24,160 nucleotides of DNA, from IMG/VR virus record IMGVR_UViG_3300042691_014395, positions 1 to 24,160 of that record; one strand, written 5' to 3'. The notes below the pieces were generated by a model. The model did no database searches, was not told the origin of the DNA, and saw only the letters and a program-made list of their open reading frames with translations. The stretch's first letter is position 1; the number at the start of each line of letters is the position of its first letter. This stretch comes from a virus. Position numbers and translations under genes: made by a program. This document shows positions 1,799-21,608 of this stretch, piece by piece.

Positions 1799-2200
1799 TC
1801 AATCCACGATCTTCTCTGGGTTGGCCTGGATGTCCACGCGCATCTGCGCCCGTGGCCCAACACCCTGCGGCACATTGATGCTGATCGCATTGCTGCCGGG
1901 ATAGGCCCACAGCAGGCGGCCAGCCACCTCCTGCAAGCTCACGCCCTCATCAGTCCACTGCACCAGGTACAGCGTCCAGCGCGTGAAAGCGTGCTCCTTG
2001 CTGTACTGGCGGATCGGCACCAGCTCAGGGTCGCGCACGATCACGCATTCCAGCCCCGTCACGGTGGTGCCTGCCGGCAGGCTTTCACCGGTGGCGCGAA
2101 CGCTGATCGCTGGTGTTGTGGCCCCATTGGCCAGCCTGTAGACACCGAGCACGTCCACCAGCGTGGTTTCCAGCTCAGTTCGTAGCGTCAGCACGTTCAT
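1799..2200 (-). CDS. Conserved-looking tail-module protein, possible tail terminator
   Basis: 133 residues, alternating helix and strand: an N-terminal helix (NVLTLRTELETTLVDVLGVYRLANG), a beta-rich core (TPAISVRATGES, TGLECVIVRDPEL, HAFTRWTLYLVQW) and a second helix (GVSLQEVAGRLLWAYPG). Size and order of elements are reminiscent of phage tail-terminator/minor tail U-type proteins, but I recognise no diagnostic motif and offer this only as a possibility. The start at 2200 lies 26 bases inside the end of the preceding frame (2175) and directly behind a motif copy (GGCAACCTCGGGGC). That supports both the start and independent initiation. Confidence 0.7.
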   Translation of the reverse strand: MNVLTLRTELETTLVDVLGVYRLANGATTPAISVRATGESLPAGTTVTGLECVIVRDPELVPIRQYSKEHAFTRWTLYLVQWTDEGVSLQEVAGRLLWAYPGSNAISINVPQGVGPRAQMRVDIQANPEKIVD

Positions 2201-6101: not shown

Positions 6102-6533
6102 TCAAGCCACCGTGAAGGTGCAGATGCCTGCGGCGTCCCAGATCACTTTGAAATCAGTGGTTGCCGGTGCTGTCTTGCTGCCGTCAAAATCAATGAACGC
6201 GACCGGCGGGTCATCAGCGTCTGTGTCGTTGTAGAGGATGCCAAACGCAGCGCTCAGCGAGCCGCCGCTAGCAGTCCAGGTGACATCATCCGCGTCAAGC
6301 TTGGCATCGTTGGTGGTGACAGTGGTGACGGCCACGTTGGCCAGCGTGGCGCCGCCTGTGGTGTAGCCGTTGCCGCTGGCCACCTCGGTGCCACCGGTTG
6401 CGGCAAGAGTGGTGTGCGCCGCGCTGAAGGTGGCTGCCGTCAGCAGCTTCAACTTGTAGGTATCCCCAACGGCATTGGCGCCAGAGGCAAACCGGGCAGC
6501 CGTGTGGTTGTAAAGGCTGATGGTGATCGCCAT
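6102..6533 (-). CDS. Small beta-rich tail-associated protein
   Basis: 143 residues. The sequence MAITISLYNHTAARFASGAN, then TYKLKLLTAATFSAAHTT, EVASGNGYTTGGATLANVAV, LDADDVTWTASGGSLSAAFG, ILYNDTDADDPPVAFIDFDG and KVIWDAAGICTFTVA, has the succession of motifs (SGNGYTTGG, DADDVTWTASGGS, IDFDGSKTAP) that I associate with a widespread family of small phage structural proteins found near tail fibres. The start at 6533 lies 28 nt from a strong motif copy that also contains the stop of the upstream gene. The role within the tail tip is not known. Confidence 0.78.
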   Translation of the reverse strand: MAITISLYNHTAARFASGANAVGDTYKLKLLTAATFSAAHTTLAATGGTEVASGNGYTTGGATLANVAVTTVTTNDAKLDADDVTWTASGGSLSAAFGILYNDTDADDPPVAFIDFDGSKTAPATTDFKVIWDAAGICTFTVA

Positions 6534-6550: not shown

Positions 6551-6561
6551 CCTAACTTGCC
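6551..6561 (-). repeat. Start-associated motif copy (GGCAAGTTAGG)
   Basis: It contains the TAG stop of the 6552 gene and lies 28 nt upstream of the ATG at 6533. It is identical in its 11 bases to the copy at 15134-15144. Confidence 0.75.
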
Positions 6562-6962
6562 GGTGGCTGCGGCCAGGTGATGTCAAACGGGTTGGGCGCG
6601 TCGGCCAGGTCGCGCAGCGCCTGGCGGAGCCTGGCCCAGGCTTCACGATCGGCGCCGAGGTCGTAGTCGGTGATCTGCGTCCAGTCACAGGACTGCAGCA
6701 GCTCGATGCGCCGCTGGCGGATCTTGGCGTACTGCGCCTGCAGCTCATCGAAGCTGTAGGGGCGCACCACAAACGCGCTGCCGTCCCAGTCGATTGTTTC
6801 CAGCTTGGGATTACACTCGGGGCGCTGGTAGGGGCCGCTGTAACCGGCGCGCTCCAGCTCGTCAGGTGTGAAGGTGCTGGCGTCCGTGCGGGTGCTGCCG
6901 TCCGCAAAGCGGATGCGGTGCGGCAGGGGTGCTGGGGTGGCGGCGTTATGGGAGTAGAGCAT
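6552..6962 (-). CDS. Phage tail/fibre assembly chaperone-like protein
   Basis: 136 residues. The C-terminal half reads QYAKIRQRRIELLQSCDWTQ, then ITDYDLGADREAWARLRQALRDLADAPNPFDITWPQPPAS. This matches the pattern R-x-x-L-L-x-x-x-D-W-T-Q ... W-A-x-x-R-Q-A-L-R-D ... W-P of the phage tail assembly chaperone/tail fibre assembly domain (Phage_TAC/APC-like). The N-terminal half (FADGSTRTDASTFTPDELERAGYSGPY) is also typical. Such proteins help fold and attach distal fibre proteins encoded nearby, fitting the location beside fibre genes. The start is 2 nt after the previous stop. Confidence 0.85.
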   Translation of the reverse strand: MLYSHNAATPAPLPHRIRFADGSTRTDASTFTPDELERAGYSGPYQRPECNPKLETIDWDGSAFVVRPYSFDELQAQYAKIRQRRIELLQSCDWTQITDYDLGADREAWARLRQALRDLADAPNPFDITWPQPPAS

Positions 6963-6964
6963 GG

Positions 6965-7492
6965 CTAGTTGACGTAGAACTCAGAAATCAAAACCCAAGT
7001 GTTGGCTCCATAAATGCGAATGTATCTAGCATTTACAGGCGTAAAGTTGCCAGGTCCGTAAAACGTGTAGATGCCATCAGCCGCAAAAGTTCCGGTGTTA
7101 AACAGAGTGGTCCAGGTGCTGTCGTCAGTGGATGCTTGCACTAAGCGATTTTCTGTATAACTCTTGTCCCATCCGCCAGGAATGTTATTCGTGCCAGTTC
7201 CAATAGTCACGCTGTTAATGTAGACGCTTTCGCCGTAATCTATTTTGACAAAAGCTACGGCATCATTGTTAGTTGCTGTTGCGGCATCAGTAAATGACCC
7301 GTTGGTCATGTTTGCCCTTGATGCTGCTGTAACGCCAGAATAAAGGGAAGATTGCGAATAAGTGCCTAGCGGCATAGTCCAGAGCCCGGCACGCTTGGCC
7401 ACGCTCTGCTCATTCTGAAACCACAACCCTGATGCTGCGCTGCCTGTCGGCGTGCGCCGGACGCCCATTAAGCCACCGTTAAAGCCCAACAT
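6965..7492 (-). CDS. Virion protein with F5/8 discoidin-like domain
   Basis: 175 residues. The N-terminal 36 residues (MLGFNGGLMGVRRTPTGSAA, then SGLWFQNEQSVAKRAGLW) are a recognisable leader of phage/cyanophage virion proteins, with the GLW...EQ...A-R-AGLW pattern. The rest has the layout of a discoidin/F5/8 type C sugar-binding domain: ASRANMTNGSFTDAA, FVKIDYGESVYINSVTIGTG, LVQASTDDSTWTTLF and the final ARYIRIYGANTWVLISEFYV. A receptor- or glycan-binding role at the tail tip is likely. The discoidin part is AT-richer than its neighbours (about 42-45 percent GC at 7141-7260 by hand count), so it may have been exchanged. The start overlaps the previous stop by one base. Confidence 0.82.
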   Translation of the reverse strand: MLGFNGGLMGVRRTPTGSAASGLWFQNEQSVAKRAGLWTMPLGTYSQSSLYSGVTAASRANMTNGSFTDAATATNNDAVAFVKIDYGESVYINSVTIGTGTNNIPGGWDKSYTENRLVQASTDDSTWTTLFNTGTFAADGIYTFYGPGNFTPVNARYIRIYGANTWVLISEFYVN

Positions 7493-7860
7493 CAGCTGAT
7501 GTCCTCATACGAAATCACCAGCTCCAGGTCGTTGGCAGCGCTGGCCTGTGCGCGGAGGCTGTGGCCTTCCTCTAGGTAGATGTATGCCTCGCGGGTCACC
7601 AGCACCTGAGTGGCATCCGCTGGCACGGCGATGGTCTTGCCGATGGCAAAGCCGGTGGTGCCGTTGTAGTGCTCCAGGCTGATGTCAGCCGCTGCGGCGC
7701 CATCCACGTTGGCGCAGTACACCGAGTTGATTTTCAGCACCTTGCCGCTGCTGGCGCCATTGCTCAGCGCTGCAGCCATCGAGGTGGTCACGGCATAACC
7801 CACGGTCTTGCCGACGACCGTCGTGACCGAGCTGCCGCTCTTGATGTTGGGGGCTGCCAT
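7492..7860 (-). CDS. Small conserved phage virion protein
   Basis: 122 residues: MAAPNIKSGSSVTTVVGKTV, then GYAVTTSMAAALSNGASSGKV, LKINSVYCANVDGAAAADIS, IAVPADATQVLVTREAYIYLEEGHSLRAQASAANDLELVISYEDIS. The order 'SNGASSGKVLKIN ... YCANVDG ... IYLEEG-x-SLR ... A-x-A-x-x-DLE-x-V-SYE-[ED]-IS' is shared with small structural proteins that I know from marine cyanophages and other tailed phages. The fold is probably a beta-sandwich. It lies between the tail hub and the discoidin protein, so it is probably a tail-tip or fibre-base component. The ATG follows the preceding stop by 29 nt, including a degenerate motif copy. Confidence 0.8.
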   Translation of the reverse strand: MAAPNIKSGSSVTTVVGKTVGYAVTTSMAAALSNGASSGKVLKINSVYCANVDGAAAADISLEHYNGTTGFAIGKTIAVPADATQVLVTREAYIYLEEGHSLRAQASAANDLELVISYEDIS

Positions 7861-7875
7861 GGCCTGACAACGTGT

Positions 7876-7887
7876 CCCTAGCTTTCC
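7876..7887 (-). repeat. Degenerate start-associated motif copy (GGAAAGCTAGGG)
   Basis: It lies 27 nt upstream of the ATG at 7860, directly after the stop of the hub gene. Together with following bases (GACACG) it parallels the copy at 15134 (GGGCACACG). Confidence 0.45.
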
Positions 7888-7889
7888 GG

Positions 7890-10520
7890 CTACTCATTAC
7901 TCAGCAGCCCCACACCATCCTCTGCCCAAGCCCAGTCGCGCCAGAACGCCACTCCAGCATCCTGGCCGCCGGCGCCAACACTGAGCGACGGCGTGACGGC
8001 AGCCACAACCATAGCAGCGGTCGGGGCCAGCACGTCAACGCCTCCCGCCTGCAGGCTGGGCACACTGACGCTGATCGCAATGCTGGCTGCCGGTGCATTG
8101 ACGACAACTGATATGCCCACCTCAGGCAACTGCGCCGCCACTGTGATCGCCGCTGCCGGTACAACCACCACAGTGGTGAGCGCCACATAGGGAGCGCTAG
8201 CGCTGATAGCAACGCTTGCTGCTGGGATCTGAATCGAGGAGGTGGCAAACACGGTCATCTTTGACCGCACGCTCAAGGGCACGACAGACAGCTGGGTCAG
8301 GGCATAGCCGTATGCCGTCACCACCATCTTGGATTTGACCACGGCCTGCAGCGACTCCGTGACACCCCACGGTGGCACCACTGCCGTCACCGTCATCTGG
8401 CCATTCACCACCGCAGGTGCTGTCGGCAGCGTTGTGATCCCAGGTGCAACCGGGAACCAGAACGTTCCCGTTCCTGCCACAGCTCCCCAGAACAGCAGAT
8501 CGCTGCTCACGACAATCCCATCGGCACTGATCGCCCAGCTGGTGCCGTTGGTGCGGTACAACGCGCTCAGCCCATTGGCGCTGATGATCACCGGACTGAA
8601 CGGTGCGGCCGGCAGGATGTCAGGGCCGGTCTGGACGTTCATCCCGTAGCGGTTGCCCAGCAGCAGCCTGTTCTGCGTCTCTCCGTAAAGGCGTGCCGTG
8701 CTGCGGGCATTGCTGGGGAAGGCATAGTATTTGTTGCCGCTTTTGGTAAAGCGATCATCGGAGACGTAGGGCGGCGTCATTCGGATCACTCGCTGCGCTG
8801 ACAGCTCGCCATACGCGAATGCCAGCTCGCTAGTTGATTCGGTTCTGTAGCTGTCCAGCGGGTTGCCCGTGTCCGCTGCATCCTTGGCGTTGTTGCGCTC
8901 AACCGGTTCGGGACGCTTCTGCAAGCCCAGCTCTCGCCCGGTTGTGATGTTGACCTCAACGCCATCAGGCGTCAGATCAGCTGCCTTGAGCAGCATCTTT
9001 TCGGCAAGTCCTGTGGACTCCTTTTCGGTGCCGCTTTCGCTGACGAAATCAAACAGCTTGGCCTTGTCAAAGGCAGATGCCAGTGCCTGCTGCCCGCGCT
9101 GCGTGTAGCCATTGGCCTTGCTTAGCTCGCGGATTGTCTTGGTAACCTGTGCGCCTTCAAAATCAACGGACTGCTCCTGGCGCTCGACAGTCTTCTCGGC
9201 AACAAACAGATTGACAGGGTCAAGCTTCCAATCGAAATACACCCCCGCGTCATAGGCTTTGTCGTAAATCGACGTCGATGCCGCCAGCTTGATCAGGGGC
9301 TCCTCAACCACAACCGAACGGTTGTCAACGGTTTCGTAGTCCTTTGGCGGTTTGCCATCAGCCTGGCGCGGCTCGTATTGGTTGACTCTGTAGGTAAATG
9401 TTTCGGTGGTGCGGATGTAGTAAGCGGAGCTGCCAATGCCGGGAGCTGTGACGCCTCGCTTGACGTTGCTGTCTTCAGTTTCTTTGTTGGCCAAATGCAC
9501 AATCAGCATCGGCGCCACATCCGCCAGGATTGTGTATTCCGTCGTGACCCGCACGGCCACGCGATCCAGCTCGTCGTAGGTGGTTTCTGTGACCGAGCGC
9601 GGCGAATAGGCGTAGTCAAATGACTCAGCCGCGTCATATGGTTCAGGGCCGGGGCCAATCGTCCCCAAGCCAATGATGGTGCCGGCCAATGGATTGGGGA
9701 TGCGAACCACCGTCACAGCGCCGATCGTCTCGTCGCGTTCCCAGTTGCGGTTCTTGACGGCCTGCTCCTCGACAACCGGATCGTTGGGGTCCGCGTCGGC
9801 TGGTTTCTCCTCGCCCTCGTCGTACTTGAGCTTCAGCGTGCTGTAGCTGACGACCACCGCATCAGCAGGCAACTGGCCAACGCCAACCGGCGCCAGGTCA
9901 ATGATGCTGCCCGCATCCACAACCGGACCGGTGCCGCCTTTTTGATCCAGGCTGAAGACCTGCAGCTGCTCGCTGGTGTCGAGGTAGCCGCAGTGGCTCA
10001 TTGAAACCAGCAAGTCGCTGAGGATGCTGGCGTAGCCCGCCGAGAAATCAAACGACGGGATTGAAAAGGAAAGGTTGATCGGATTTGACGATGCCGTAAT
10101 GCCAAGCTCGCTTAAGCACTTCTGAGCAATCGAATAGCCGCTGATCGGGATCGTGACAATGCGCTGCTCTTCGTCCGTGCGGCTGCTGTTGGCAGGGTCG
10201 TCTAGTGGGCGCCAGCTGACGCGCTCTGCTAGATCCTGCAGGTAGGTCAACTTGCAGCCCAGCTCCACCGAGGTGGTGCGCCGGTACGGATCGGCAAAAC
10301 TGCTGAGCACGCGCAGCTTGCGCGGCAACGTGAACTGCTGACCGGCCTTCGTGTAGGAGAAGGTGACGACAGTCCCCGGCGCTGGCGTGATGGTGCCTCG
10401 GATTTCAGCTGATCCCTTGGTCTTGATCAGGCCCGTGCCTTGCACGTAGTCGTCGTTGATTGAGGCGCTGATCAGCGTGCCAAGGCTGCAGGTGACTGTG
10501 GCGCGAATGTCAATGGCCAT
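7890..10520 (-). CDS. Large tail hub/baseplate protein with C-terminal repeats
   Basis: 876 residues. Residues 1-100 (IDIRATVTCSLGTLISASIN, DPYRRTTSVELGCKLTYLQDLAERV) and the later parts (GYSIAQKCLSELGI, SILSDLLVSMSHCGYLDTSEQLQVFSL) resemble the beta-barrel/tail-hub organisation of Tal or gp27-like proteins, which follow the tape measure and distal tail genes in siphoviruses. Residues about 765-853 contain four 22-23-residue repeats of the type VPAAAITVAAQLPEVGISVV, known in phage tail proteins. The C-terminus DAGVAFWRDWAWAEDGVG is aromatic. The position, third after the tape measure, fits a hub to which tip proteins attach. The start overlaps the previous stop by one base. I see no peptidase motif. 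Confidence 0.82.
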   Translation of the reverse strand: MAIDIRATVTCSLGTLISASINDDYVQGTGLIKTKGSAEIRGTITPAPGTVVTFSYTKAGQQFTLPRKLRVLSSFADPYRRTTSVELGCKLTYLQDLAERVSWRPLDDPANSSRTDEEQRIVTIPISGYSIAQKCLSELGITASSNPINLSFSIPSFDFSAGYASILSDLLVSMSHCGYLDTSEQLQVFSLDQKGGTGPVVDAGSIIDLAPVGVGQLPADAVVVSYSTLKLKYDEGEEKPADADPNDPVVEEQAVKNRNWERDETIGAVTVVRIPNPLAGTIIGLGTIGPGPEPYDAAESFDYAYSPRSVTETTYDELDRVAVRVTTEYTILADVAPMLIVHLANKETEDSNVKRGVTAPGIGSSAYYIRTTETFTYRVNQYEPRQADGKPPKDYETVDNRSVVVEEPLIKLAASTSIYDKAYDAGVYFDWKLDPVNLFVAEKTVERQEQSVDFEGAQVTKTIRELSKANGYTQRGQQALASAFDKAKLFDFVSESGTEKESTGLAEKMLLKAADLTPDGVEVNITTGRELGLQKRPEPVERNNAKDAADTGNPLDSYRTESTSELAFAYGELSAQRVIRMTPPYVSDDRFTKSGNKYYAFPSNARSTARLYGETQNRLLLGNRYGMNVQTGPDILPAAPFSPVIISANGLSALYRTNGTSWAISADGIVVSSDLLFWGAVAGTGTFWFPVAPGITTLPTAPAVVNGQMTVTAVVPPWGVTESLQAVVKSKMVVTAYGYALTQLSVVPLSVRSKMTVFATSSIQIPAASVAISASAPYVALTTVVVVPAAAITVAAQLPEVGISVVVNAPAASIAISVSVPSLQAGGVDVLAPTAAMVVAAVTPSLSVGAGGQDAGVAFWRDWAWAEDGVGLLSNE
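7962..8228 (-). repeat. Four 22-23-residue coding repeats at C-terminus of the hub
   Basis: The units start IPAASVAISASAP, VPAAAITVAAQLP, APAASIAISVSVP and APTAAMVVAAVTP, each followed by 9-10 residues. They share the P-A-A-x-[IV]-x-[IV]-[AS] core and are diverged rather than recent copies. Confidence 0.8.
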
Positions 10521-11284
10521 CAGATGATCTGCAGCGCTGTCAGGGAGACGCTGTACCGGGTGCTCTTGGCGCCGCCGCTGATGATCACCTCAGCCGTTGC
10601 GCTGGGCGGCGAGATTGGGAACCAGCTGGTGCTGCTCGGTATAGCGGCAATCGTCTCGTCGTACCAAGACAACACGTCGTCGTAGCTGCCCGTGGTGAGA
10701 TAGCCCTCGATCTGGCGCACCTTGTGCGCCGCCAGTGCACCGGTCACGTAGCTCACGCCCGTTGCGGTCAGCGACACGCTGGGGCCGTCCTGGCGGGTCA
10801 GCATCGGCTTGGTCAAGGTGACAATCGGTGAGGTGCCTGTAGCCCGCGTCAGGGTGACCGTGCCAAGGCTGGGCACCGTTGCCTCAGAGTTCTGGCGGCT
10901 TTTCTCCTGCTCCCGCAGCAGCACGGCCAGCGCTTGCGCCGCATCCACCAACGTGGCATTGGCACTGATGTAGGGGCCAGCTTGCTCCCCACTGGGGGGC
11001 TCAGTGAACCAGCAGGCCAAGCCGCTGATGCTCAGGCCGTTGCTGCTGGCGATACTGACGCTGACGGTGGTGCCAACGCTGGCGCTGCTGAGCGTGTCGG
11101 CATCGGTGAGGCGCGAGTTGCGCCAGGTGCCGTACTCGCTCACCAAGGCTTGCCACTGAGCGCTGGTCAGCAACCCATTGACGCGGAAGGTGCGAGCGGT
11201 CAGGCCGGTGCGGGCATCGCCTTCGTAGCCAAACGGCTGCGCCGTGAGAACGCTGGTGCTGAAGCTGCCAATGGTGATAGTCAT
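10520..11284 (-). CDS. Distal-tail-type protein (Dit candidate)
   Basis: 254 residues between tape measure and hub. The beginning MTITIGSFSTSVLTAQPFGY, then EGDARTGLTARTFRVNGLLT and AQWQALVSEYGTWRNSRLTD, matches the beginning of distal tail/minor tail proteins that sit under the tape measure, where a strand pair is followed by a 'GLLT-x-x-x-W-x-x-L' helix. The central helix AAQALAVLLREQEKSRQNSE separates two beta-rich halves; the second contains GPSVSLTATGVSY and TRYSVSLTALQII. The start overlaps the tape measure stop by 4 nt (ATGA). Function is inferred from order and general architecture. Confidence 0.75.
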   Translation of the reverse strand: MTITIGSFSTSVLTAQPFGYEGDARTGLTARTFRVNGLLTSAQWQALVSEYGTWRNSRLTDADTLSSASVGTTVSVSIASSNGLSISGLACWFTEPPSGEQAGPYISANATLVDAAQALAVLLREQEKSRQNSEATVPSLGTVTLTRATGTSPIVTLTKPMLTRQDGPSVSLTATGVSYVTGALAAHKVRQIEGYLTTGSYDDVLSWYDETIAAIPSSTSWFPISPPSATAEVIISGGAKSTRYSVSLTALQII

Positions 11285-13416
11285 GACAGCGCTCCATTGA
11301 CAGCATTGAGCACGTCACCGCTGGCGCTGCCGCCGGGAACGTTGACGTTGACCGCCCAGGACTTGGCCGCCAGCTCGCGGGTTGCCGCAAGCAGCTCCCG
11401 GTTGACACCCACCAGGTCTGCGGTGTTCTTGTTCAGCGCTTCCTGCAGGTTGGCAACGTTGGTGTTGGCGGCCTTTTCACGATCGACTTGCTGAATGAAC
11501 TGCCGCACGGATTCGACAACATCACTCGTCGAACCGCTGAACTCTGGCGCCTGCGCACCGGTGATCCGAGTGAAGTCAGCCTGCGCATCACGGAACAGCG
11601 GCAGGATGGAGCGCAACGTTTCCAGTCCGCGCCGATCGCGCTGCTCTGGATTCAGGAACTGATTCAACCCCTTGGGGTCATTGCGAATGCCGGCCAGCTC
11701 CAGCGTTGCCTGCTTGAGGTCATCGCGCAGCTGCTTGCCTGCAGTCTTCAGTGCTGTGGCGCCTTCGATCAGCTTGAGCCGCACCTCTTCTGATGCGACG
11801 ACCTGCTGATCCACCAGCTTTTGCATGTCAGGGCCGGTGTCTTTGCCCTGCAGGCGCAGCGCATCAATCTGGGCACCGATCTGAATCACCTGATTTTTGG
11901 CCGCCTGGACGCCAGCCTCGATTTCCTGGCGCTGCTGGATCGTCTGACGCACGACGCCAGCTTCGGCAGCGGCCAGCTCATTGGCTGCGGCAATGCGCTG
12001 CTTGACGGTCTGCAGGGCCAGCTGGGCCTCAACCCGCTGCTGCTGTTGCTGGGCCAGCAATTTAAGATCGGGCGGCTGGGGCTTGCTGGACAACTCGCCG
12101 GATGGCGTGGTCGCGGCTCCAGGCTTGACCGTTGGCGCATTCAATGGCTGCGACTTGGCCCAGTCGTTCCATTTGCGCTCGACTGTCTTGTATTCAGCCT
12201 CAATGAATTTCTGAAATCCGCCAGCTTTGATGATGTCTTGAGCAAACTTAAGGGGGTTGCTAACGCCGCGAATGGACAGCTCTGCATTCTTGGCAATCTG
12301 AGCGCCAAGAGCGGAAGCTGCCAAAAAGGCTCTGCGGATTGCCAGCTCAACCAGCAAAAAGTCTCTGATTAGCTTTTTGCCGTCGATGTTGTTGAGAATG
12401 TCAGAGACAAACTTTAACCCATCCGCAATGTTGTTGACAATGATGGAGGCCCATTCACGGGTTGCCGCTGCGATTGTGCTGATCAGCTCAGGGTTGCCGG
12501 CCAATGCCTCAGAAAATGCCTTGGCTTGTGCGGTGAGCGGTGCAAACAGCTGTTCAATGGATGACAGGCTTGGAAACGCCTGGTCAAAGACTTGGTTGAC
12601 AACCCCGAAGGCTGCCGACAATGCCGGGGCGATAGATGACGCAAAGCCCCCGAACAGTTGGCCGAAGTTGTCAAAGATGTTGTTGAACTGAACGTCTACC
12701 GCTTGACCAGCAAGCTGCAACGCAGTCATGTCGCCAGTGGCCAGCACCAGCGCCTTGTTGAAGTCGTTGGTGCTGATCTGACCTTTGGACATTGCGTCCT
12801 GCAATGCGGTGCCACTTTTGCCGGTGACCTGGGCCAGCTCCTGCGTCAGATCAACGCCAGCCTCCAGAAGCTGCAAGTTTTCTTCGCCCTGCAGGCGGCC
12901 TTTGGCATAGACCTGCGCGTAGATCAACGCCAGGCGTTCCAGCGGCTGACCGGACTGCGCCGCAATGGCGCCCACGCGGCTGATCGTGCCTTGCAGCTGG
13001 TTGACATTGACGCCAACTGCCAGGAAACGCTGGGCAGCAGTGAGAATCTCCTCGTTTTTGAACGGAGTGGTCTTGCTCAGGGTGAAGAGATCCTGCCGCA
13101 GCTGCTTGGCGGCCTCAGCTGAACCGGTCAGGCCAGTGAAGGCGGCATTGAGCTTTTGAATGCTGCCGGCAGTTTGCGTTGCTGCAAAGCCAATTCCTGC
13201 AATGGCTGCACCAACGCTTGCGATTGCAAGCGCTGCAGGGGCAGCAGCTGCTCCAATAGCAGACAGAAGGCCTGCTGCACTCCCAGCAGACTTTGCGCTG
13301 CCGCCGATGTCTTCAAGGGCTTTATCTGCGTTCGATCTGGCGCGATTCAGTCCGGCATTGAACTGCCGATCGTCAACGGTCAGCGTCAGTACAGCCTGCC
13401 CAAGCTGATCCGCCAC
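11281..13416 (-). CDS. Tail tape measure protein
   Basis: 711 residues from GTG 13416 (the frame is closed just upstream by TGA). Residues 1-35 (LTLTVDDRQFNAGLNRARSNADKAL) are the typical beginning of tape measure proteins. A strongly hydrophobic Ala/Gly segment follows at residues 48-80. Then comes the conserved tape-measure block with NAAFTGLTGSAEAAKQLRQD, TTPFKNEEILTAAQRFLAVG and GEENLQLLEAGVDLTQELAQ. The C-terminal half includes a long coiled coil (QQQQRVEAQLALQTVKQRIA and onward). A 711-residue ruler is short, consistent with a tail near 100 nm by the usual 1.5 angstrom per residue. It is divergently oriented to the plus-strand gene at 13464. Confidence 0.93.
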   Translation of the reverse strand: MADQLGQAVLTLTVDDRQFNAGLNRARSNADKALEDIGGSAKSAGSAAGLLSAIGAAAAPAALAIASVGAAIAGIGFAATQTAGSIQKLNAAFTGLTGSAEAAKQLRQDLFTLSKTTPFKNEEILTAAQRFLAVGVNVNQLQGTISRVGAIAAQSGQPLERLALIYAQVYAKGRLQGEENLQLLEAGVDLTQELAQVTGKSGTALQDAMSKGQISTNDFNKALVLATGDMTALQLAGQAVDVQFNNIFDNFGQLFGGFASSIAPALSAAFGVVNQVFDQAFPSLSSIEQLFAPLTAQAKAFSEALAGNPELISTIAAATREWASIIVNNIADGLKFVSDILNNIDGKKLIRDFLLVELAIRRAFLAASALGAQIAKNAELSIRGVSNPLKFAQDIIKAGGFQKFIEAEYKTVERKWNDWAKSQPLNAPTVKPGAATTPSGELSSKPQPPDLKLLAQQQQQRVEAQLALQTVKQRIAAANELAAAEAGVVRQTIQQRQEIEAGVQAAKNQVIQIGAQIDALRLQGKDTGPDMQKLVDQQVVASEEVRLKLIEGATALKTAGKQLRDDLKQATLELAGIRNDPKGLNQFLNPEQRDRRGLETLRSILPLFRDAQADFTRITGAQAPEFSGSTSDVVESVRQFIQQVDREKAANTNVANLQEALNKNTADLVGVNRELLAATRELAAKSWAVNVNVPGGSASGDVLNAVNGALS

Positions 13417-13434
13417 GCCAACCCATCATCTTTC

Positions 13435-13445
13435 CCAAGGTTGCC
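13435..13445 (-). repeat. Start-associated motif copy (GGCAACCTTGG)
   Basis: It lies 29 nt upstream of the tape measure GTG at 13416. It is one arm of an inverted pair with the plus-strand copy at 13452-13461. Confidence 0.75.
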
Positions 13446-13451
13446 GCCGCA

Positions 13452-13461
13452 GCAACCTAGG
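13452..13461 (+). repeat. Start-associated motif copy on plus strand (GCAACCTAGG)
   Basis: This is the only strong plus-strand copy, and it precedes a plus-strand gene: GCAACCTAGGCC directly abuts ATG 13464. The motif thus follows the direction of the gene rather than the direction of the operon. Confidence 0.75.
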
Positions 13462-13463
13462 CC

Positions 13464-13859
13464 ATGACAAGCGCTCTAGCCGGTCTCGCCAACGCCACAG
13501 CCACCTTCAATGTGGCCACCGTTGGCACCACCACCGACCCTGACACCGGCAACGTTCTGCCAGCCACAGAAGCGCTCACCGTCAGCCTGTACCTGCGCCA
13601 GGGCGGCAGCAGCAGCGCCAACCTGCCGGGCGTTGACGCTGACACCGAGGTGCTGGAGGGTTATGCGGTGAGCCCGCAGGCCCTGGATGCACGGATCAAG
13701 CCAGGCACCACCGGCACCCTCAACTTCGCCGGCCAAGGCAGCGCCGACTGCGAGGTCATCAGCAGCCGCTTTCCTTACGGCAGCACCGGCACAATCGGCA
13801 GCACGCTGCAACAGGTGCTCGGCGACAAGATCCGCATTGCCCGCTACCTGCAGAACTGA
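13464..13859 (+). CDS. Probable head-closure/head-tail joining protein (reverse orientation)
   Basis: 131 residues on the plus strand. It has a beta-rich beginning (ATATFNVATVGTTTDPDTGN), a middle LTVSLYLRQGGSSSANLPGVD, and the end ADCEVISSRFPYGSTGTIGS, TLQQVLGDKIRIARYLQN. Size, beta content and the adjacent gp10-like gene fit a head-closure (gp16/Phage_H_T_join-like) protein that connects the portal assembly to the tail. I recognise no diagnostic motif, so the name rests on context. The stop overlaps the next ATG as TGATG. It and its partner are the only genes in the window on the plus strand, although connector genes are normally co-directional with head and tail genes. Confidence 0.75.
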   Translation: MTSALAGLANATATFNVATVGTTTDPDTGNVLPATEALTVSLYLRQGGSSSANLPGVDADTEVLEGYAVSPQALDARIKPGTTGTLNFAGQGSADCEVISSRFPYGSTGTIGSTLQQVLGDKIRIARYLQN

Positions 13860-14305
13860 TGACCGTTCAGGTCAAGGCCACCTACAAGCTGACCGGCTGG
13901 AACAGCACCCAGCTCAAGCTGCGGATCCCGGTCATCCTCACCGGCTACGGCAAGGTGATGGACCAGCAGCTCAAAGAGGAAATCCAGTCGCCACAGTTCA
14001 ACTGGCCGCGTGAAACACGCCGCCGCAATGGCTCCCGCGTCAGCAGCCCGCGTGACATCGTGGACTTGGGCAAGTTCCTGCGCTCACAACGGCGCGATCG
14101 CCCCAGCGCCACACAGCTGCGTTTCACGTGGGATGTCAAAAGCGACAGCGGTTTTTCCTATGCGCCGCTGATCCTGACCGGCTACACCACCAGGCGCGGC
14201 ACCATTGTTCCCGGTCGCAACTGGATCCAGCCAGCACTGGAAGCCAGGCCGCTTGATCGCTTCTTTGCCGCCGAATGGCGCCGACTTGAAAGCAGCGGAC
14301 TGTAG
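13859..14305 (+). CDS. HK97 gp10-like neck/tail-connector protein (reverse orientation)
   Basis: 148 residues. The basic N-terminal half includes ILTGYGKVMDQQLKEEIQSP and NWPRETRRRNGSRVSSPRDI. It is followed by VDLGKFLRSQRRDRPSATQL, RFTWDVKSDSGFSYAPLILT, GYTTRRGTIVPGRNWIQPAL and DRFFAAEWRR. The order of a helix at the start, a 'YAPL-x-x-x-G' segment, then 'GRNWI-x-PAL' followed by a helix, is that of gp10/minor-capsid-type neck proteins ('YAxxVHxG ... R-x-F-x-x-PAL'). A role in the connector between head and tail is likely. It is translationally coupled to the previous gene (TGATG). The stop lies next to the terminator of the opposite strand. Confidence 0.8.
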   Translation: MTVQVKATYKLTGWNSTQLKLRIPVILTGYGKVMDQQLKEEIQSPQFNWPRETRRRNGSRVSSPRDIVDLGKFLRSQRRDRPSATQLRFTWDVKSDSGFSYAPLILTGYTTRRGTIVPGRNWIQPALEARPLDRFFAAEWRRLESSGL

Positions 14306-14310
14306 ACAAG

Positions 14311-14339
14311 AAAAAAGCGGTCGCCTCCACAACGACCGC
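14311..14339 (-). terminator. Intrinsic terminator for minus-strand transcription
   Basis: In minus-strand sense, GCGGTCG and CGACCGC form a perfect 7-bp GC-rich stem with a 9-nt loop (TTGTGGAGG), followed by six T then CTT. It lies 28 nt after the stop of the major tail protein gene and separates it from the opposite-strand gene end at 14305. A second small hairpin, GACTC-3 nt-GAGTC (14346-14358), lies just upstream of it. On the plus strand there is no T-run after the stem, so it should act only on the minus-strand transcript. Confidence 0.85.
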
Positions 14340-14356
14340 CCCCTCGACTCACCGAG

Positions 14357-14366
14357 TCTAAGTTGC
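14357..14366 (-). repeat. Motif copy at the right end of the inverted block (GCAACTTAGA)
   Basis: It immediately follows the stop of the major tail protein gene, in minus orientation, with no minus-strand gene start downstream within 900 bp. It forms an inverted pair with the plus copy at 13452, and the pair brackets the two flipped genes. Confidence 0.6.
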
Positions 14367-15113
14367 TCAGCTCACGGTTGCCACAGTCAGCACCGGCAGC
14401 GTATCGCCAGTGCCAAAGACGGTGGGGTCGTCGATCGTCAACACATCGCCCACCTTGTAGTTCTCGCCAGAGGCCACGATGGTTGCGGTCTGGATCACAC
14501 CAGAACCATTCACTGTGATCGTGACGGTGGCATTCTTGCCCGAGCCATTGCCTTGTGCCGGAGTGGTGCTGACCAGCGGAACGCCAGTCTGAGCGGACAG
14601 GCCAAGGCCGCCGTTGGTGACCGTCAGCGTGGCAATGCCGTCACCCTGCTGGTAGTTCTTGGGTGCGCCATAGCCCACCAGGTCAAAGGTCACAGCCGCC
14701 ACTGAGCCAGCTTCCAGGCTCTCAGACCAGTTGCCCACAAACGCTACTCCGGCATCGACTTGCGCATCGGTGTTGCCAGCACCCAGCAGCGGCAGCTGAC
14801 GGTACCACTGAACCGCCACGTTGTTGGCCGAGGTCTGCGCTGCACGCTTGAGGATCAGGTAGCCCGTGGAGGTCGGGTCCAGGTTCAGCGCGGCACTGAT
14901 CGTATAGCTGTTGCCGGTAACAATGCTGGACTTGAAGCCGAAGTCGGTGCTGTAGTCCAGCACATCCTGCGTGTCCGAGCTGACCGAGATTGAAGCATTG
15001 GTCAGGCTCAGCACCTCCGTCATGGTGCTGGAGCTTGTCGGAGCGCTGGAAGCGGTGGTGCCAGCCTTGACCCAGAACCTGAGATCAAGAGCGGCGAAAT
15101 AGGTTCCGGCCAC
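14367..15113 (-). CDS. Major tail tube protein with extra C-terminal domain
   Basis: 248 residues from GTG 15113. The N-terminal two thirds (AALDLRFWVKAGTTASSAPT, EVLSLTNASISVSSDTQDVL, DYSTDFGFKSSIVTGNSYTI, WSESLEAGSVAAVTFDLVGYG) has the succession of strands expected for a siphoviral tail tube protein. Its location after the adaptor genes and before the tape measure supports this. Residues about 165-248 form a second, beta-rich, Gly/Thr-rich domain with KNATVTITVNGSGVIQTATI and ASGENYKVGDVLTI. This 'G-x-x-Y-x-VGDVLTI' pattern is common in appended domains of phage structural proteins. A surface-decorating tail domain is inferred. A strong motif copy lies 31 nt from the start, and an intrinsic terminator follows the gene. 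Confidence 0.82.
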   Translation of the reverse strand: MAGTYFAALDLRFWVKAGTTASSAPTSSSTMTEVLSLTNASISVSSDTQDVLDYSTDFGFKSSIVTGNSYTISAALNLDPTSTGYLILKRAAQTSANNVAVQWYRQLPLLGAGNTDAQVDAGVAFVGNWSESLEAGSVAAVTFDLVGYGAPKNYQQGDGIATLTVTNGGLGLSAQTGVPLVSTTPAQGNGSGKNATVTITVNGSGVIQTATIVASGENYKVGDVLTIDDPTVFGTGDTLPVLTVATVS

Positions 15114-15133: not shown

Positions 15134-15144
15134 CCTAACTTGCC
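15134..15144 (-). repeat. Start-associated motif copy (GGCAAGTTAGG)
   Basis: It contains the TAG stop of the sigma-like gene and lies 31 nt from the GTG of the major tail protein at 15113. Confidence 0.75.
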
Positions 15145-15722
15145 GCCAGCCGCTCTTCCTCTGCTTCCAGCACCTCCCACGGTGTCGGGATCGGCGAGAC
15201 GTGCAGGTCGAAGCCTTTGACGTCATGCGCAATGCCGGCGGTGGCCAGCAGCGCATCCTTCAGGTCGGTCTTGCTGCAGCTCAACTCGCGGCACACGGCT
15301 GCAGACTCCCAGCCCAGCGCCATCAGCTTGCGGGCCTGGTTGCCGAGCAGCCGCGCCTTGTGCGTCGCCTTGATTGTCCAGTTGTGGCTGCGCAGGTAAT
15401 GCAGCACCTCACCTTGCGCAAAGGCCCAGAAGATGGTGCTCAGCCTTCCGCGGTCCGGGTTCCAGGCCTTGCACGCCTTGATGAAGGCCATGTCCACGCA
15501 GGAAAAGATGTCTTCGCGTGCAATGCAGTGCCCGTACTTGCGTGCCAGCTTGCCACCGAAGCTCTTGATCAGGCCAATGTGCTCGGCATACATGCGCCCG
15601 ATGCGGCGCTGCTCAGAGCGGGTCAGCGGGTTGGCTAGATACGGTTCAGCACGTCGCTTAAGCGGTGCAACTGCAGCAACCGCAAACAGATCAAGCTGGC
15701 ATTCAGCGACGGGCATTTTCAC
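15135..15722 (-). CDS. Sigma-70-like RNA polymerase sigma factor
   Basis: 195 residues. Residues about 40-115 match sigma-70 region 2: GRMYAEHIGLIKSFGGKLAR, KYG, then AREDIFSCVDMAFIKACKAW, NPDRGRLSTIFWAFAQGEVL and HYLRSHN. The 'F-x-KA-x-x-x-[WF]-[ND]-P-[DE]-RG-x-[LF]-ST-x-x-x-x-x-x-x-x-[EI]-x-x-[YF]-[LI]-R' pattern is characteristic. Residues about 130-160 (ARKLMALGWESAAVCRELSC, SKTDLKDALLAT) form a region-4-like helix-turn-helix. The C-terminal 35 residues are acidic. It should bind host core RNA polymerase and redirect it, plausibly to late phage promoters. It starts at GTG 15722 or ATG 15716. Its location between adaptor and tail tube genes is unusual, since such regulators commonly sit outside the structural module. 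Confidence 0.85.
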   Translation of the reverse strand: MKMPVAECQLDLFAVAAVAPLKRRAEPYLANPLTRSEQRRIGRMYAEHIGLIKSFGGKLARKYGHCIAREDIFSCVDMAFIKACKAWNPDRGRLSTIFWAFAQGEVLHYLRSHNWTIKATHKARLLGNQARKLMALGWESAAVCRELSCSKTDLKDALLATAGIAHDVKGFDLHVSPIPTPWEVLEAEEERLAAS

Positions 15723-15723
15723 A

Positions 15724-15735
15724 CTCTAACTTCGC
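15724..15735 (-). repeat. Degenerate start-associated motif copy (GCGAAGTTAGAG)
   Basis: It contains the TAG stop of the adaptor gene and lies 13 nt from GTG 15722 (19 nt from ATG 15716) of the sigma-like gene. Confidence 0.5.
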
Positions 15736-16283
15736 AACACCGGCACTGATCGGGCGCTGGAATTGGAGCCGCTCAGGCACAAGCAACCGAGCACTTGCTT
15801 CAAGTGCGGCACCACGTTCAAAGCGTTCTTGGCTTCTGCCTGGCCGGCCTGGTTGAACTCCACGTCGATCACGTCCACCCGCGCTCGCTTCAGGTTGGCA
15901 TTGGGGATGCCAGGGATCAGTTCACTGCTACCAGCGCCGGTGCCGCTGAGCACGTTGCTGTCACCCAGCAGGTATTCCGCCAGGTCAAAGGCGGCTTGCT
16001 TGATCGGCTGCGGAATCTCGCTGCTGGTGAAGCTCCAGTCGCCGCATTCAGCATCACTGCGCGGCCAGAGCAGCGCCTGCGTTGTGGAAGCCTTGCTGCC
16101 CACGTATTGCAGCTCGTCAAGGTAGCGGGTCGCCATGATCAGCGCCCGGCCCTTGTTGTCAGTGGTTGCCGTGGCCCAGTTCAGGGTGCCGAGGTACAGG
16201 TTGGCCAGATCATCAGCAGCGGCCACCGACAGGTAGCTGTTGGCATTGCTGGCCCCGGCAGTGGCGACAACGGTGACGGGCAT
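15726..16283 (-). CDS. Head-tail adaptor (DnaT-like/gp6-type connector)
   Basis: 185 residues. The pattern ASNANSYLSVAAADDLANLY, then LNWATATTDNKGRALIMATR, YLDELQYVGSKASTTQALLW and PRSDAECGDWSFTSSEIPQP, IKQAAFDLAEYLL, is that of the phage family often labelled 'DnaT-like ssDNA-binding' but placed as a head-tail connector ('NSYVS-x-x-EAD-x-Y ... ALI-x-AT-x-x-LD ... Q-x-L-x-WPR'). It follows the minor head protein, the normal place for the first adaptor ring. The last 25 residues (LGCLCLSGSNSSARSVPVLRS) are unlike the rest. The start lies 28 nt from a strong motif copy. Confidence 0.85.
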   Translation of the reverse strand: MPVTVVATAGASNANSYLSVAAADDLANLYLGTLNWATATTDNKGRALIMATRYLDELQYVGSKASTTQALLWPRSDAECGDWSFTSSEIPQPIKQAAFDLAEYLLGDSNVLSGTGAGSSELIPGIPNANLKRARVDVIDVEFNQAGQAEAKNALNVVPHLKQVLGCLCLSGSNSSARSVPVLRS

Positions 16284-16300: not shown

Positions 16301-16311
16301 CTTAAGTTGCC
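16301..16311 (-). repeat. Start-associated motif copy (GGCAACTTAAG)
   Basis: It contains the TAA stop of the minor head protein gene (CCACCGGCAACTTAAGG) and lies 28 nt upstream of the ATG at 16283. The CCACCGGCAA prefix is shared with the copy at 6551. Confidence 0.75.
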
Positions 16312-17327
16312 GGTGGCGTCTTCGGTGCTGACCAGAGCTTGACGGCCTTGTCGAAGCCGATCTCGCCGTCCACCAGGCGCTGGCCGAGCTTCTTGCCGAA
16401 GATGGCCTGCGCAGTTGCAGGGTTGTCGCTGACCCACTGCCTAGCCGCAACCTTAAAGCTCAGCGCTTGCTCAGCGCCATCGCCGTCGGCGGGTCGCTTG
16501 GGCGGCACCTTGTTGCCACTCGGGTCGGTCATGTCTTCGCTGCGCCACTTCCACGGCAGGAGGTAGCAGCGGCACTGCATGTGCGGGCTGACCTTGCGGT
16601 AGTCAGTCGGGAAGCGCTTGCCGTCCAGCTTCAGGCAGATCGGGCAGACCGCGCTGTCCAGAACTGCCGTCCACACCAGCCCTTCAGGCCCCATCCATGC
16701 CGGGTCAGCCTCGAACTCATAGATCGCCTGCTGGGCCGCGTTGCCCACCTCCTGCACCCCGGTGCGGATGATGGCCTCGACGTTGTTCTCCGTGACGCGA
16801 ACGACCGCATCCTCATAGGTGCGGAACACTTCGCCGCCCAGATCGGACAGCCCCAACCGGATGTAGCGCTCCACGCGATCGGCCACAGCGGCCGGCAGTG
16901 TTGCGGTCAGCTGTGTGCTGAGCGTCTTGCCGCCCACCACGGCATCGTTCACCAGGCGGTTGACCTGCGCCTGTGTGACCTGCACCGCACCATCGGAGGC
17001 CAGCTCACCGCCGGCCATGGTGACCATGCGGCGGGCAAAGTCCAGCTGCCGCTCGACAAATGGCGCCAAGGCGTTCTGCATGGCCGCCAGCTGCGGCACG
17101 CCGAAGCTGTCCTGCACGCTGCGGCCAACAGCTGCAACGATGCTGGCAATGATGCGCTCCCGGCCTGGCCCTACAGCCAGAGCGCCGGAACTGCCCACCG
17201 CACGCTCCACAACTGCCAGCGTGGTGCGCAGATCGCGCAACGCCTGCTTGATCAGGCGGTCTTCCAGCTTCTTGGCCGAAAGGGCATTGCGCAGGAAGGC
17301 TTCGACCTGTGCTGACAGATCAGCCAT
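16302..17327 (-). CDS. Mu F-like minor head (head morphogenesis) protein
   Basis: 341 residues from ATG 17327, whose codon overlaps the previous stop as TGATG; an upstream in-frame start at 17381 adds 18 atypical residues and is less likely. The N-terminal two thirds is helical. The C-terminal domain carries the Mu F signature: TAVLDSAVCPICLKLDGKRF with Cys228 and Cys231, then SPHMQCRCYLLPW with His249, Cys252 and Cys254. These residues commonly form a metal-binding cluster in this family. The protein is expected inside or at the portal vertex, where it may be ejected with DNA. A C-terminal extension (AARQWVSDNPATAQAIFGKK, LGQRLVDGEIGFDKAVKLW) is the common tail of such proteins. Confidence 0.92.
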   Translation of the reverse strand: MADLSAQVEAFLRNALSAKKLEDRLIKQALRDLRTTLAVVERAVGSSGALAVGPGRERIIASIVAAVGRSVQDSFGVPQLAAMQNALAPFVERQLDFARRMVTMAGGELASDGAVQVTQAQVNRLVNDAVVGGKTLSTQLTATLPAAVADRVERYIRLGLSDLGGEVFRTYEDAVVRVTENNVEAIIRTGVQEVGNAAQQAIYEFEADPAWMGPEGLVWTAVLDSAVCPICLKLDGKRFPTDYRKVSPHMQCRCYLLPWKWRSEDMTDPSGNKVPPKRPADGDGAEQALSFKVAARQWVSDNPATAQAIFGKKLGQRLVDGEIGFDKAVKLWSAPKTPPAT

Positions 17328-17629: not shown

Positions 17630-18684
17630 TGCGTGATGGTTTGGAGGGTGCTGTTGGAAAGGCGCTGGGGCCAGTAGGTGAGGCGGCGGATGTGAACGTT
17701 GCCTTGGGAACCGTTGCCAATAGGCTCCATGCCAATTCCAGCGCGATCAACGCTCGGCATTGTTCCAGAAGAATCTGATTGCGACGCTCCTCCGTTTTCG
17801 GCAAATCCAAAATCATTTGCTTTTGCAGCTAAAGCGGCTCTGTATTCAATACCTGCGGCATAAGCGCCTTGGTTAAAAGATGCTTGTGATACGCTGGCAT
17901 CTGTTACATCGTAAATACGATTAACGCCGCCTTGAGCACGTAACCAAATTAAGTTTGTTGCAGCGGCGTTAGTAAATTGAAATACTCTGCCGCCGCCTGC
18001 AGTAGGGCTTTGCGGAAAGCTGTACCTTGCAAACACCGTCCCCTCATCCTGCCGATACCAGGAGCTGAAGTTCGCCCCCGTGATGCTGGCCACATCTGCG
18101 GCGCGGGTGGCAGTGGCTCCGGCGGTGGCGATGTAGGAAGTCCGAAACGCACCGGCTTCAAGCTGTGCATTGGTAACAGTGCCGCTCACTGTCAGCGTCA
18201 GGCTGCCTGCGGTTGGTGTAAACGTCAGGCTGACCCGATTAGCCTCGCCAGTGCCGGTGCCAACCAGCGGGCCGGCGGTGCTGGCGCCTGTCAGCGTGAT
18301 GGTGCCGGTGCCGGTGAAATGCAGGGTATGGGCAACAGCGGTAACAGTGGCGCTCTGGGTTGACAGGGTGCCGCTGTTTAGCAGCAAATTAGTCCGCGCC
18401 TCCTCCACCAACAGCCCCAGGCTCTCGCCGGTCGTGGGGTTGTGGTCAAACCTCGGCACATCCGTGGCAGCCGTCTGCAGCGTTCCCGCGCTGTCGATGA
18501 AGGTCGCGCTGCTGGCGCGGGTGAAGGTAATCAGGCTCTGCCCCGTTCTGGAGTCAACCAGCGATTTGCTATCCGCAAAGCGCAGATCAAGGCTTGGCAC
18601 CGCTTTTGCGCTGCGCCAGAGGGCGTTGTGCACCCACAGGCCTGGCATCAACGCAGCGCGGCGCGATGGCAGTATCAACGTCAC
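17626..18684 (-). CDS. Putative head fibre/spike protein (LamG-like)
   Basis: 352 residues. N-terminal text PSLDLRFADSKSLVDSRTGQ, SLITFTRASSATFIDSAGTL, RFDHNPTTGESLGLLVEEAR, TNLLLNS is the typical start of phage head-spike/fibre proteins ('F-x-RAS-x-A-x-x-x-x-x-G ... R-x-[DE]H-x-P-x-TGE-x-LGLL-[VI]-EEARTNLLL'). The middle SGTVTNAQLEAGAFRTSYIA and TRAADVASITG is also typical. The C-terminal half is a LamG-like sandwich (YRQDEGTVFARYSFPQSP, IEYRAALAAKANDFGFAENG). Because it lies between capsid and minor head genes, a capsid-attached fibre is likelier than a tail fibre. Bases 17760-17970 are AT-richer (45-48 percent GC by hand count of three lines), consistent with exchange of the binding domain. 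Confidence 0.83.
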   Translation of the reverse strand: MTLILPSRRAALMPGLWVHNALWRSAKAVPSLDLRFADSKSLVDSRTGQSLITFTRASSATFIDSAGTLQTAATDVPRFDHNPTTGESLGLLVEEARTNLLLNSGTLSTQSATVTAVAHTLHFTGTGTITLTGASTAGPLVGTGTGEANRVSLTFTPTAGSLTLTVSGTVTNAQLEAGAFRTSYIATAGATATRAADVASITGANFSSWYRQDEGTVFARYSFPQSPTAGGGRVFQFTNAAATNLIWLRAQGGVNRIYDVTDASVSQASFNQGAYAAGIEYRAALAAKANDFGFAENGGASQSDSSGTMPSVDRAGIGMEPIGNGSQGNVHIRRLTYWPQRLSNSTLQTITQ

Positions 18685-19229
18685 AGGCCAGCCTCCAGTG
18701 TCACTACCCGCAGGCTGTGAGCAGTGCCGCTGGCTGGGGTGTACGCGCCACGGGTTTCAAGTTCGGCATAAAGGATGTTGCTGCCGGCTGCCAGTTTGAT
18801 TGCCGTGCCGCAGTAGTCAGATTGCGTGAACAACGTGCTGCCCAGGTCTTGCGGCGCTGAAAGATCGACAAACCCCGCATAGGCACCCACTTCGCCGCTC
18901 ACCAGATCAAACGCGGCGTTGTCCAGAATCGCGGTGGGAATGGCGGTGTAGAAGTGCAGCCGGAATCCGGCCATGCCGCTGGGCACCGTGGTGCTTGCAA
19001 TCATCAGGCGCACCGACTGCACTAGCACGTAGCCACCGCTGGGGCCGATGCTGGGCAGGGTGATGATGGCGCTGCCCGCATTGGCGGGCGTGACGCTATC
19101 AGCCACACCAATCACATCACCGGCGGTGTAGGCCGTGGTATTGCTGGGGCGCGTGATGGTGACCGCAGCGCGATAAGCGACACCGCTTGCTTCTACTGCA
19201 GCCTCGCCGCCGCCCAGAAAGGTGGCCAT
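18681..19229 (-). CDS. Virion beta-sandwich protein in head-fibre cassette
   Basis: 182 residues. AAVTITRPSNTTAYTAGDVI, then GVADSVTPANAGSAIITLPS, IGPSGGYVLVQSVRLMIAST, AGFRLHFYTAIPTAILDNAA, FDLVSGEVGAYAGFVDLSAP and GSTLFTQSDYCGTAIKLAAG, SNILYAELETRGAYTPASGT follow the pattern of a common phage structural family ('RP-x-[DN]TTAY-x-AGDV-[IV]-G ... F-x-L-x-[FL]-x-x-x-x-P'). It probably sits on the capsid together with the LamG-like fibre. The start overlaps the previous stop as TGATG, and the stop overlaps the fibre start as ATGA. Confidence 0.8.
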   Translation of the reverse strand: MATFLGGGEAAVEASGVAYRAAVTITRPSNTTAYTAGDVIGVADSVTPANAGSAIITLPSIGPSGGYVLVQSVRLMIASTTVPSGMAGFRLHFYTAIPTAILDNAAFDLVSGEVGAYAGFVDLSAPQDLGSTLFTQSDYCGTAIKLAAGSNILYAELETRGAYTPASGTAHSLRVVTLEAGL

Positions 19230-19384
19230 CAGTCTTCTGTCACCTGGATTTCCTTAGGTTGCCGACCACGGCGGCGAGGCCTGGCCTCTTCCTTTGGCGA
19301 GGTCTGCTCAACAGCAAAAGAGGCCGCCTCCGCAGAGGCAGCCTCCAGCTGTTCACGCAGTCGCCTGAACGCGAACAATCCCAC
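19229..19384 (-). CDS. 51-residue charged protein
   Basis: A small ORF with GTG start at 19384, 3 nt after the preceding stop: MGLFAFRRLREQLEAASAEA, ASFAVEQTSPKEEARPRRRG, RQPKEIQVTED. The N-terminus is an amphipathic helix and the C-terminus is disordered and rich in Arg, Lys and Glu (RPRRRGRQPKE). It fills the otherwise empty space between decoration and fibre genes exactly, and its stop overlaps the next ATG as TGATG, which supports translation. I recognise no family. Its coding sequence contains a motif copy. Confidence 0.65.
   Translation of the reverse strand: MGLFAFRRLREQLEAASAEAASFAVEQTSPKEEARPRRRGRQPKEIQVTED
19252..19263 (-). repeat. Start-associated motif copy (GGCAACCTAAGG)
   Basis: It lies inside the end of the 51-residue gene, 34 nt from the next ATG at 19229. 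The AAGGA at its end could serve as a Shine-Dalgarno-like element, although it is far from the start. Confidence 0.65.
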
Positions 19385-21596: not shown

Positions 21597-21607
21597 CCTA
21601 GGTTGCC
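21597..21607 (-). repeat. Start-associated motif copy (GGCAACCTAGG)
   Basis: It lies just after the stop of the 45-residue gene, 37 nt from the scaffold ATG. It shares CAACCTAGGCC with the plus-strand copy at 13452. Confidence 0.75.
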
Positions 21608-21608
21608 G

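Follow-up and report, generated by a model that had tools for sequence, protein, structure and literature searches.

Two connector genes with predicted head-closure and neck roles (A and B) lie inverted behind the major tail protein (MTP) gene in a clade of cyanophage-like siphoviruses, and the comparison of gene orders among relatives indicates that this inversion is real, clade-wide, ancient, and fixed. In what we regard as the probable history, the A-B pair was both inverted and shifted to its place behind MTP in the ancestor of the clade and became fixed there, with a terminator behind MTP splitting the operon and with TMP and A-B transcribed divergently from the spacer between them.

The window analyzed, a 24,160-base IMG/VR viral record, is a fragment in which portal, scaffold, MCP, MuF, head-tail adaptor (Ad1), MTP, and TMP genes are recognized, all on the minus strand. 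Judged by portal and MCP, the isolates most similar to it are siphoviruses of Synechococcus and Prochlorococcus, namely, KBS-S-2A, S-H1, and MED4-184 (50 to 60% identity; 55 to 60% for the portal and MCP of KBS-S-2A), suggesting a cyanophage-like siphovirus, and because these isolates infect Synechococcus or Prochlorococcus, a cyanobacterial host is likely. One related locus falls inside an uncultured cyanobacterial genome bin, a bin member that may itself be a phage contig. The neighbors of A and B are TMP (positions 11281 to 13416, minus strand; Pfam TMP_3, E = 3.3e-25), which is divergent from A, and MTP (14367 to 15113, minus strand; phrog_3884 major tail protein, E = 1.9e-5), and Ad1 occupies positions 15726 to 16283 on the minus strand (phrog_477, E = 2.6e-32). 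Positions 2 to 1180 of the minus strand form an open frame that resembles a tail-fibre gene and contains degenerate repeats (VSGTFWQATQPISG.., SGPLTDTQLRA..).

Coding strand and identity of the inverted genes

Gene A (positions 13464 to 13859, 131 amino acids) and gene B (13859 to 14305, 148 amino acids) are encoded on the plus strand and overlap in the sequence TGATG. An earlier note on this DNA took them to be the only genes on the plus strand within a structural operon that otherwise runs on the minus strand, and their coding signature agrees: among 44 relatives, third codon positions vary 2.8 times as much as second positions in A and 2.1 times as much in B, the codon-position pattern matches that of MTP and Ad1, which served as controls, and the frames opposite A and B carry stops. 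These patterns indicate that A and B are genuine plus-strand genes, and they are the sole credible ones, the other long plus-strand open reading frames of the window lying opposite longer minus-strand genes that are family matched or conserved. The coding signature of codons 2 to 16 of A equals that of the remainder of the gene, so the start at 13464 is sound; a later start, which would gain a leader, is ruled out by the same signature.

Family searches by sequence alone returned nothing named for either protein. For A, no named Hc1 family was matched (phrog_34238, a family of unknown function, reached only E = 0.087, and Pfam gave none), hhalign detected no match to the Hc1 protein of KBS-S-2A, and profile comparisons of A and B with single KBS-S-2A proteins were likewise without a match. 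Structure was therefore used, in the form of AlphaFold models built from alignments of relatives. The model of A (pLDDT 78.7) has the beta-barrel fold of a stopper: its best eight matches in a Foldseek search of the PDB are all phage neck or connector proteins, headed by 9lwa_A of Mycofy1 (E = 4.4e-4; VIA Z 8.3, though unrelated barrels reach Z 8 as well). The best PDB match of the model of B (pLDDT 81.2) is the neck tail-completion chain of SaPI1, 9mu2_P (VIA Z 9.3; 102 residues superposed at an rmsd of 3.0), with the next match at 3.9. B also shares phrog_37577 with the neck gene of two collinear outgroup loci, L048 and L049, a gene whose Pfam match is HK97-gp10_like (E = 0.007, under the cut-off) and which follows head closure in the order Hc1, B homologue, tail terminator, MTP. 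The names head closure and neck, proposed in the earlier note, are thus supported by the folds and by where the genes lie in collinear relatives, without a direct family match, and the models support a head-closure/stopper (Hc1-like) fold for A and an HK97-gp10-like neck/tail-completion fold for B. In two relatives (L021 and L029), B is 53 to 59% identical to that of the window and carries an insertion, yet A is 80% and Ad1 84 to 87% identical; B seems to have been exchanged independently there.

Orientation across relatives

Scanning 2.9 million viral contigs with B, with Ad1, and with a profile built for A yielded more than 150 loci. A-B is opposite in strand to MTP at all of the approximately 140 loci having both, some of which overlap as pieces cut from a shared contig, and it also opposes the sigma-like gene, Ad1, TMP, and the next tail gene wherever both are present. 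With the count restricted to A-B blocks that differ in DNA sequence and include both flanks, 60 of 60 oppose MTP and TMP, and identity in A ranges from 57 to 100%. This uniformity points to an inversion that is older than the clade. An assembly artefact or a mis-called strand might be entertained, since the window is a metagenome contig and a single irregularity occurs among the relatives, a partial MuF match of L027 in the wrong orientation by the contig end (positions 11545 to 11847), itself probably an assembly error; however, the identical arrangement in scores of independent contigs and the plus-strand codon signature of A and B render this explanation exceedingly improbable.

Ancestral gene order

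The outgroups have the canonical order. L048 and L049 carry MCP, adaptor-like, head-closure, neck, tail terminator, MTP, and TMP genes in that order on one strand, with a head closure that gives a profile match to A (phrog_34238 in both) and B homologues that are 31 to 36% identical. In the annotation of KBS-S-2A, the tail genes are preceded by Hc1, Neck1, and the tail terminator, again in this order, and the structural modules of S-H1, MED4-184, and Microcystis phage Me-ZS1 are each on one strand. The alignment of gene order with related phages, suggested in the earlier note, therefore finds L048/L049, KBS-S-2A, S-H1, and MED4-184 collinear, with the connectors before MTP, and its proposal of an ancient inversion is consistent both with these outgroups and with the fixed orientation in the clade.

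Protein roles and neighbors in the canonical siphophage connector module (KBS-S-2A, L048/L049) are homologous to those of the window, but the canonical module lies on one strand ahead of MTP, whereas in the window Hc1-Ne1 follows MTP in inverted orientation and the tail terminator sits at the distal end of the tail gene set. The displaced tail-terminator homologue (positions 1799 to 2200, minus strand) is 29% identical (E = 9e-12) to positions 4547 to 4948 of L048, a gene found after the neck gene and before MTP, and is also homologous to gp018 of S-CBS2. The inverted position of A-B behind MTP and the displacement of the tail terminator to the tail end together mark the rearrangement as ancient, and the latter indicates that an ancestral trio of Hc1, neck, and tail terminator was broken up. 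A single inversion cannot yield the present order; the rearrangement must have taken two or more steps, or a cassette must have moved. By one route, the segment from head closure to MTP would first have been inverted, after which MTP would have been returned or replaced in its old orientation.

Sequences flanking the inverted block

The earlier note described the block as bracketed by inverted motif copies, and the letters are indeed present, with GCAACCTAGG at 13452 (plus strand), GCAACCTTGG at 13435 (minus strand), and GCAACTTAGA at 14357 to 14366 (minus strand). The bracket itself dissolves, its left side being a pair of gene-start motifs and its right side a tandem stop, two unrelated elements. 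GCAACTTAGA starts directly behind the MTP stop and supplies a second in-frame stop (TGA GCA ACT TAG; positions 14358 to 14366, minus strand). Relatives have GCA AAC TAG, GGC TAA, or GCA AGC TAA in its place, and a second in-frame stop occurs 1 to 4 codons past the MTP stop in 39 of 50 distinct MTP 3' ends (in 38 of 50 at a limit of roughly three codons), indicating that the right-hand copy is a tandem stop unrelated to the left motif pair.

The left pair lies in the 47-bp divergent spacer between the TMP and A starts (positions 13417 to 13463). One copy, CAGCAACCTAGG, is on the plus strand 2 nt before the ATG of A (13450 to 13461; position weight matrix [PWM] score 15.4), and the other, CGGCAACCTTGG, is on the minus strand 18 nt before the GTG of TMP (13435 to 13446; PWM 15.7). 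As an inverted repeat, the pairing of 13435 with 13452 is of a kind common in the window: 10-bp inverted pairs with one mismatch and a loop of at most 60 number 100, against a mean of 63.5 in shuffles, and the minus strand matches GCAACCTAGG, at up to 2 mismatches, once per approximately 1.4 kb. What makes the pair real is solely its conservation and not its repeat form, one copy being present on each spacer strand in 55 of 55 distinct contexts. Since each copy is on the strand of its own gene, the repeat noticed earlier is best read as the mark of two divergent gene starts. A hairpin or recombination arm was considered and set aside, the repeat being at chance level in the window and the conserved letters being explained by two directional motifs.

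With start-associated motifs on the left and a tandem stop on the right, recombination at the motif, as the earlier note envisaged, finds no support. The same holds for its suggestion of a switchable segment: the search of related genomes for a block in the opposite orientation found none (0 of 60 distinct blocks and 0 of approximately 140 loci), an outcome that the note itself took to exclude a switch. Such a switch would have a recombinase invert A-B at its flanking motifs, as in the Hin/Gin systems, where an inverted gene segment also lies between inverted repeats; short inverted matches do occur at 13435/13452 and 14357, and a serine recombinase is encoded in 8 of 10 relatives and a tyrosine recombinase in one. 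Unlike Hin/Gin segments, however, A-B is without long arms and has a single orientation, the serine recombinase frames seen (467 to 512 amino acids, in 8 of 10 relatives, many of which are fragments) are of integrase rather than invertase size, and no invertase was seen among them. Moreover, the right-hand copy is unconserved as a motif, and a flipped A-B would be left without a motif and behind a terminator. Taken together, a switch is very improbable. The integrase-sized serine recombinase in 8 of the 10 longer relatives (L187 to L190 and others) suggests that the clade is probably temperate.

Terminators and proposed transcription units

Behind MTP, a G+C-rich stem followed by TTTTTTC on the minus strand (positions 14314 to 14342) has the form of an intrinsic terminator and is conserved across relatives. 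Its RNAalifold consensus is -16.5 kcal/mol (22 sequences), both partners of 7 of its 11 pairs have changed in one or more relatives, consistent with compensatory change, and it is present in 6 of 6 longer records, where the next motif follows 849 to 872 nt on, at TMP. Transcription of the head genes and MTP would end here, and the terminator would bar polymerase from entering B-A in the antisense direction. TMP and A-B must then start anew, in line with the earlier expectation that A-B needs a separate start signal; transcription of TMP (minus) and A-B (plus) would leave the 47-bp spacer in opposite directions, with one motif copy serving either side, and would yield separate transcripts. Read on the plus strand, the MTP hairpin has no T run. 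Since no terminator for that strand was detected downstream of B, transcripts of A-B may continue antisense into MTP.

A second late-operon terminator (positions 19320 to 19345, minus strand), with a stem of 11 that includes 8 G-C pairs and a T run, stands after the MCP unit, and the motif copy at 19253 to 19264 comes next. This terminator is kept in two relatives, with the motif 56 to 73 nt on. MCP and MTP are the two most abundant virion proteins, and terminators behind the MCP unit and MTP would cut the late operon into units that favor them.

A late-gene motif

The motif, with consensus CGGCAAC[C/T]TAGG, is oriented with the downstream gene and precedes about eight late genes. Besides those of A and TMP, copies, all on the minus strand, lie before the scaffold gene (positions 21597 to 21608; PWM 18.0), the gene at 18681 to 19229 (19253 to 19264; PWM 16.8), Ad1 (16301 to 16312; PWM 16.3), MTP (15134 to 15145; PWM 16.9), the gene at 7492 to 7860 (7877 to 7888; PWM 16.5), and the gene at 6102 to 6533 (6551 to 6562; PWM 16.9). 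At a strict score, the late strand has 7 copies in the window against 0.2 in shuffles, and 7 to 9 in five longer relatives against 0.3 to 0.9; the matrix was partly seeded from the same genomes, so exact counts lean high, but the strand bias and the absence from isolates are independent of seeding. A start codon follows shortly after nearly every late-strand copy. The motif is effectively absent from KBS-S-2A, S-H1, and MED4-184 (0 to 1 copies), and MCP, which is surely highly expressed, is without it.

The motif is 2 nt from the start of A in 40 of 55 contexts and 17 nt in 13 of 55, and 16 to 20 nt from the TMP start in most. The 2-nt spacing leaves almost no leader and does not suit a -10 or -35 element, but it would be compatible with a start-site element or with a signal for translation; a scan for ordinary sigma-70 promoters showed no excess. 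Because TMP and A-B must start anew and the motif copies are the only conserved elements of their spacer, the motif is likely part of a late promoter or late transcription start signal.

Alternatively, the motif could act in translation initiation or as another mRNA element, with the promoters of TMP and A elsewhere, for example, inside TMP or in sequence not recognizable as a promoter. It is asymmetric and near start codons, does not precede translationally coupled genes (B and 10520 to 11284 among them), and often precedes genes without a Shine-Dalgarno sequence, but its bimodal spacing (2 or approximately 17 nt) is unusual for a ribosome signal, it comes after two terminators, and the spacer has no other visible conservation; this role is possible but doubtful. 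The Cluster K mycobacteriophage start-associated sequence (SAS; GGGATAGGAGCCC), with an AGGAG core and located 3 to 7 bp from the starts of non-structural genes, has a proposed role in translation (PMC3203893). Like SAS, the motif is a short asymmetric repeat set in the gene direction just before many starts, sometimes holds the upstream stop codon, and occurs in one phage group only. It differs from SAS in consensus, in lacking the Shine-Dalgarno core, in its association with late genes, and in its distance from the start.

The stoperators of mycobacteriophage L5 and Cluster A bind the phage repressor across the genome and, like the motif, are short directional repeats in small intergenic gaps; unlike them, the motif is confined to late genes. 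The spacer palindrome could, in a stoperator-like manner, be an operator through which a phage repressor or regulator controls TMP and A-B jointly, as a gap of 3 nt separates the two facing copies in the window and the motif is found at late genes only. Elsewhere, however, the motif is single and in the gene direction, and the loop between the spacer copies varies widely among relatives, so that the two-copy symmetry follows from the divergence of the genes; an operator is unlikely, and a late start signal remains the preferred reading.

A sigma-like protein in the late operon

A short sigma-factor-like protein of 195 amino acids is encoded in the late operon (positions 15135 to 15722, minus strand; phrog_351 sigma factor, E = 1e-8; Sigma70_r2, E = 7e-4, under the cut-off). 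It is present in 10 of 10 relatives tested, and no isolate with A or the sigma-like protein was found among the phage records searched. As a guess, it is a candidate reader of the motif. We hold only tentatively the broader idea that CGGCAAC[C/T]TAGG is a clade-private signal read by the clade's own sigma-like protein, with the paired spacer copies forming a bidirectional late promoter and a start at each gene permitting connectors to be flipped and relocated with their timing intact. Other sigma genes occur among related phages: G003 has what seems, judged from its N terminus only, to be a full-length RpoD-like gene (39734 to 40648, minus strand), on the opposite strand, KBS-S-2A also has an annotated RpoD-like gene, and in L096 (Cylindrospermopsis phage Cr-LKS4) a sigma-factor gene (7053 to 8144) directly adjoins a B-like gene and is encoded on the strand opposite to an otherwise one-way structural operon.

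Implications for siphophage gene order and late control

Few features of siphophages are as well conserved as the order of their genes between portal and tape measure, and this order is used in annotating them. The literature searched, which covered the field in part, contained no account of late promoters in cyanosiphoviruses or of an inversion of their connector genes, and to our knowledge little is known of late gene control in these phages. The existence of a large environmental cyanophage clade with inverted Hc1 and neck genes and a moved tail terminator indicates that assembly does not need collinearity, and synteny-based annotation would be misled by such a clade. The clade-specific motif and the short sigma-like protein, occurring in one operon, provide a testable candidate for late control in cyanosiphoviruses.
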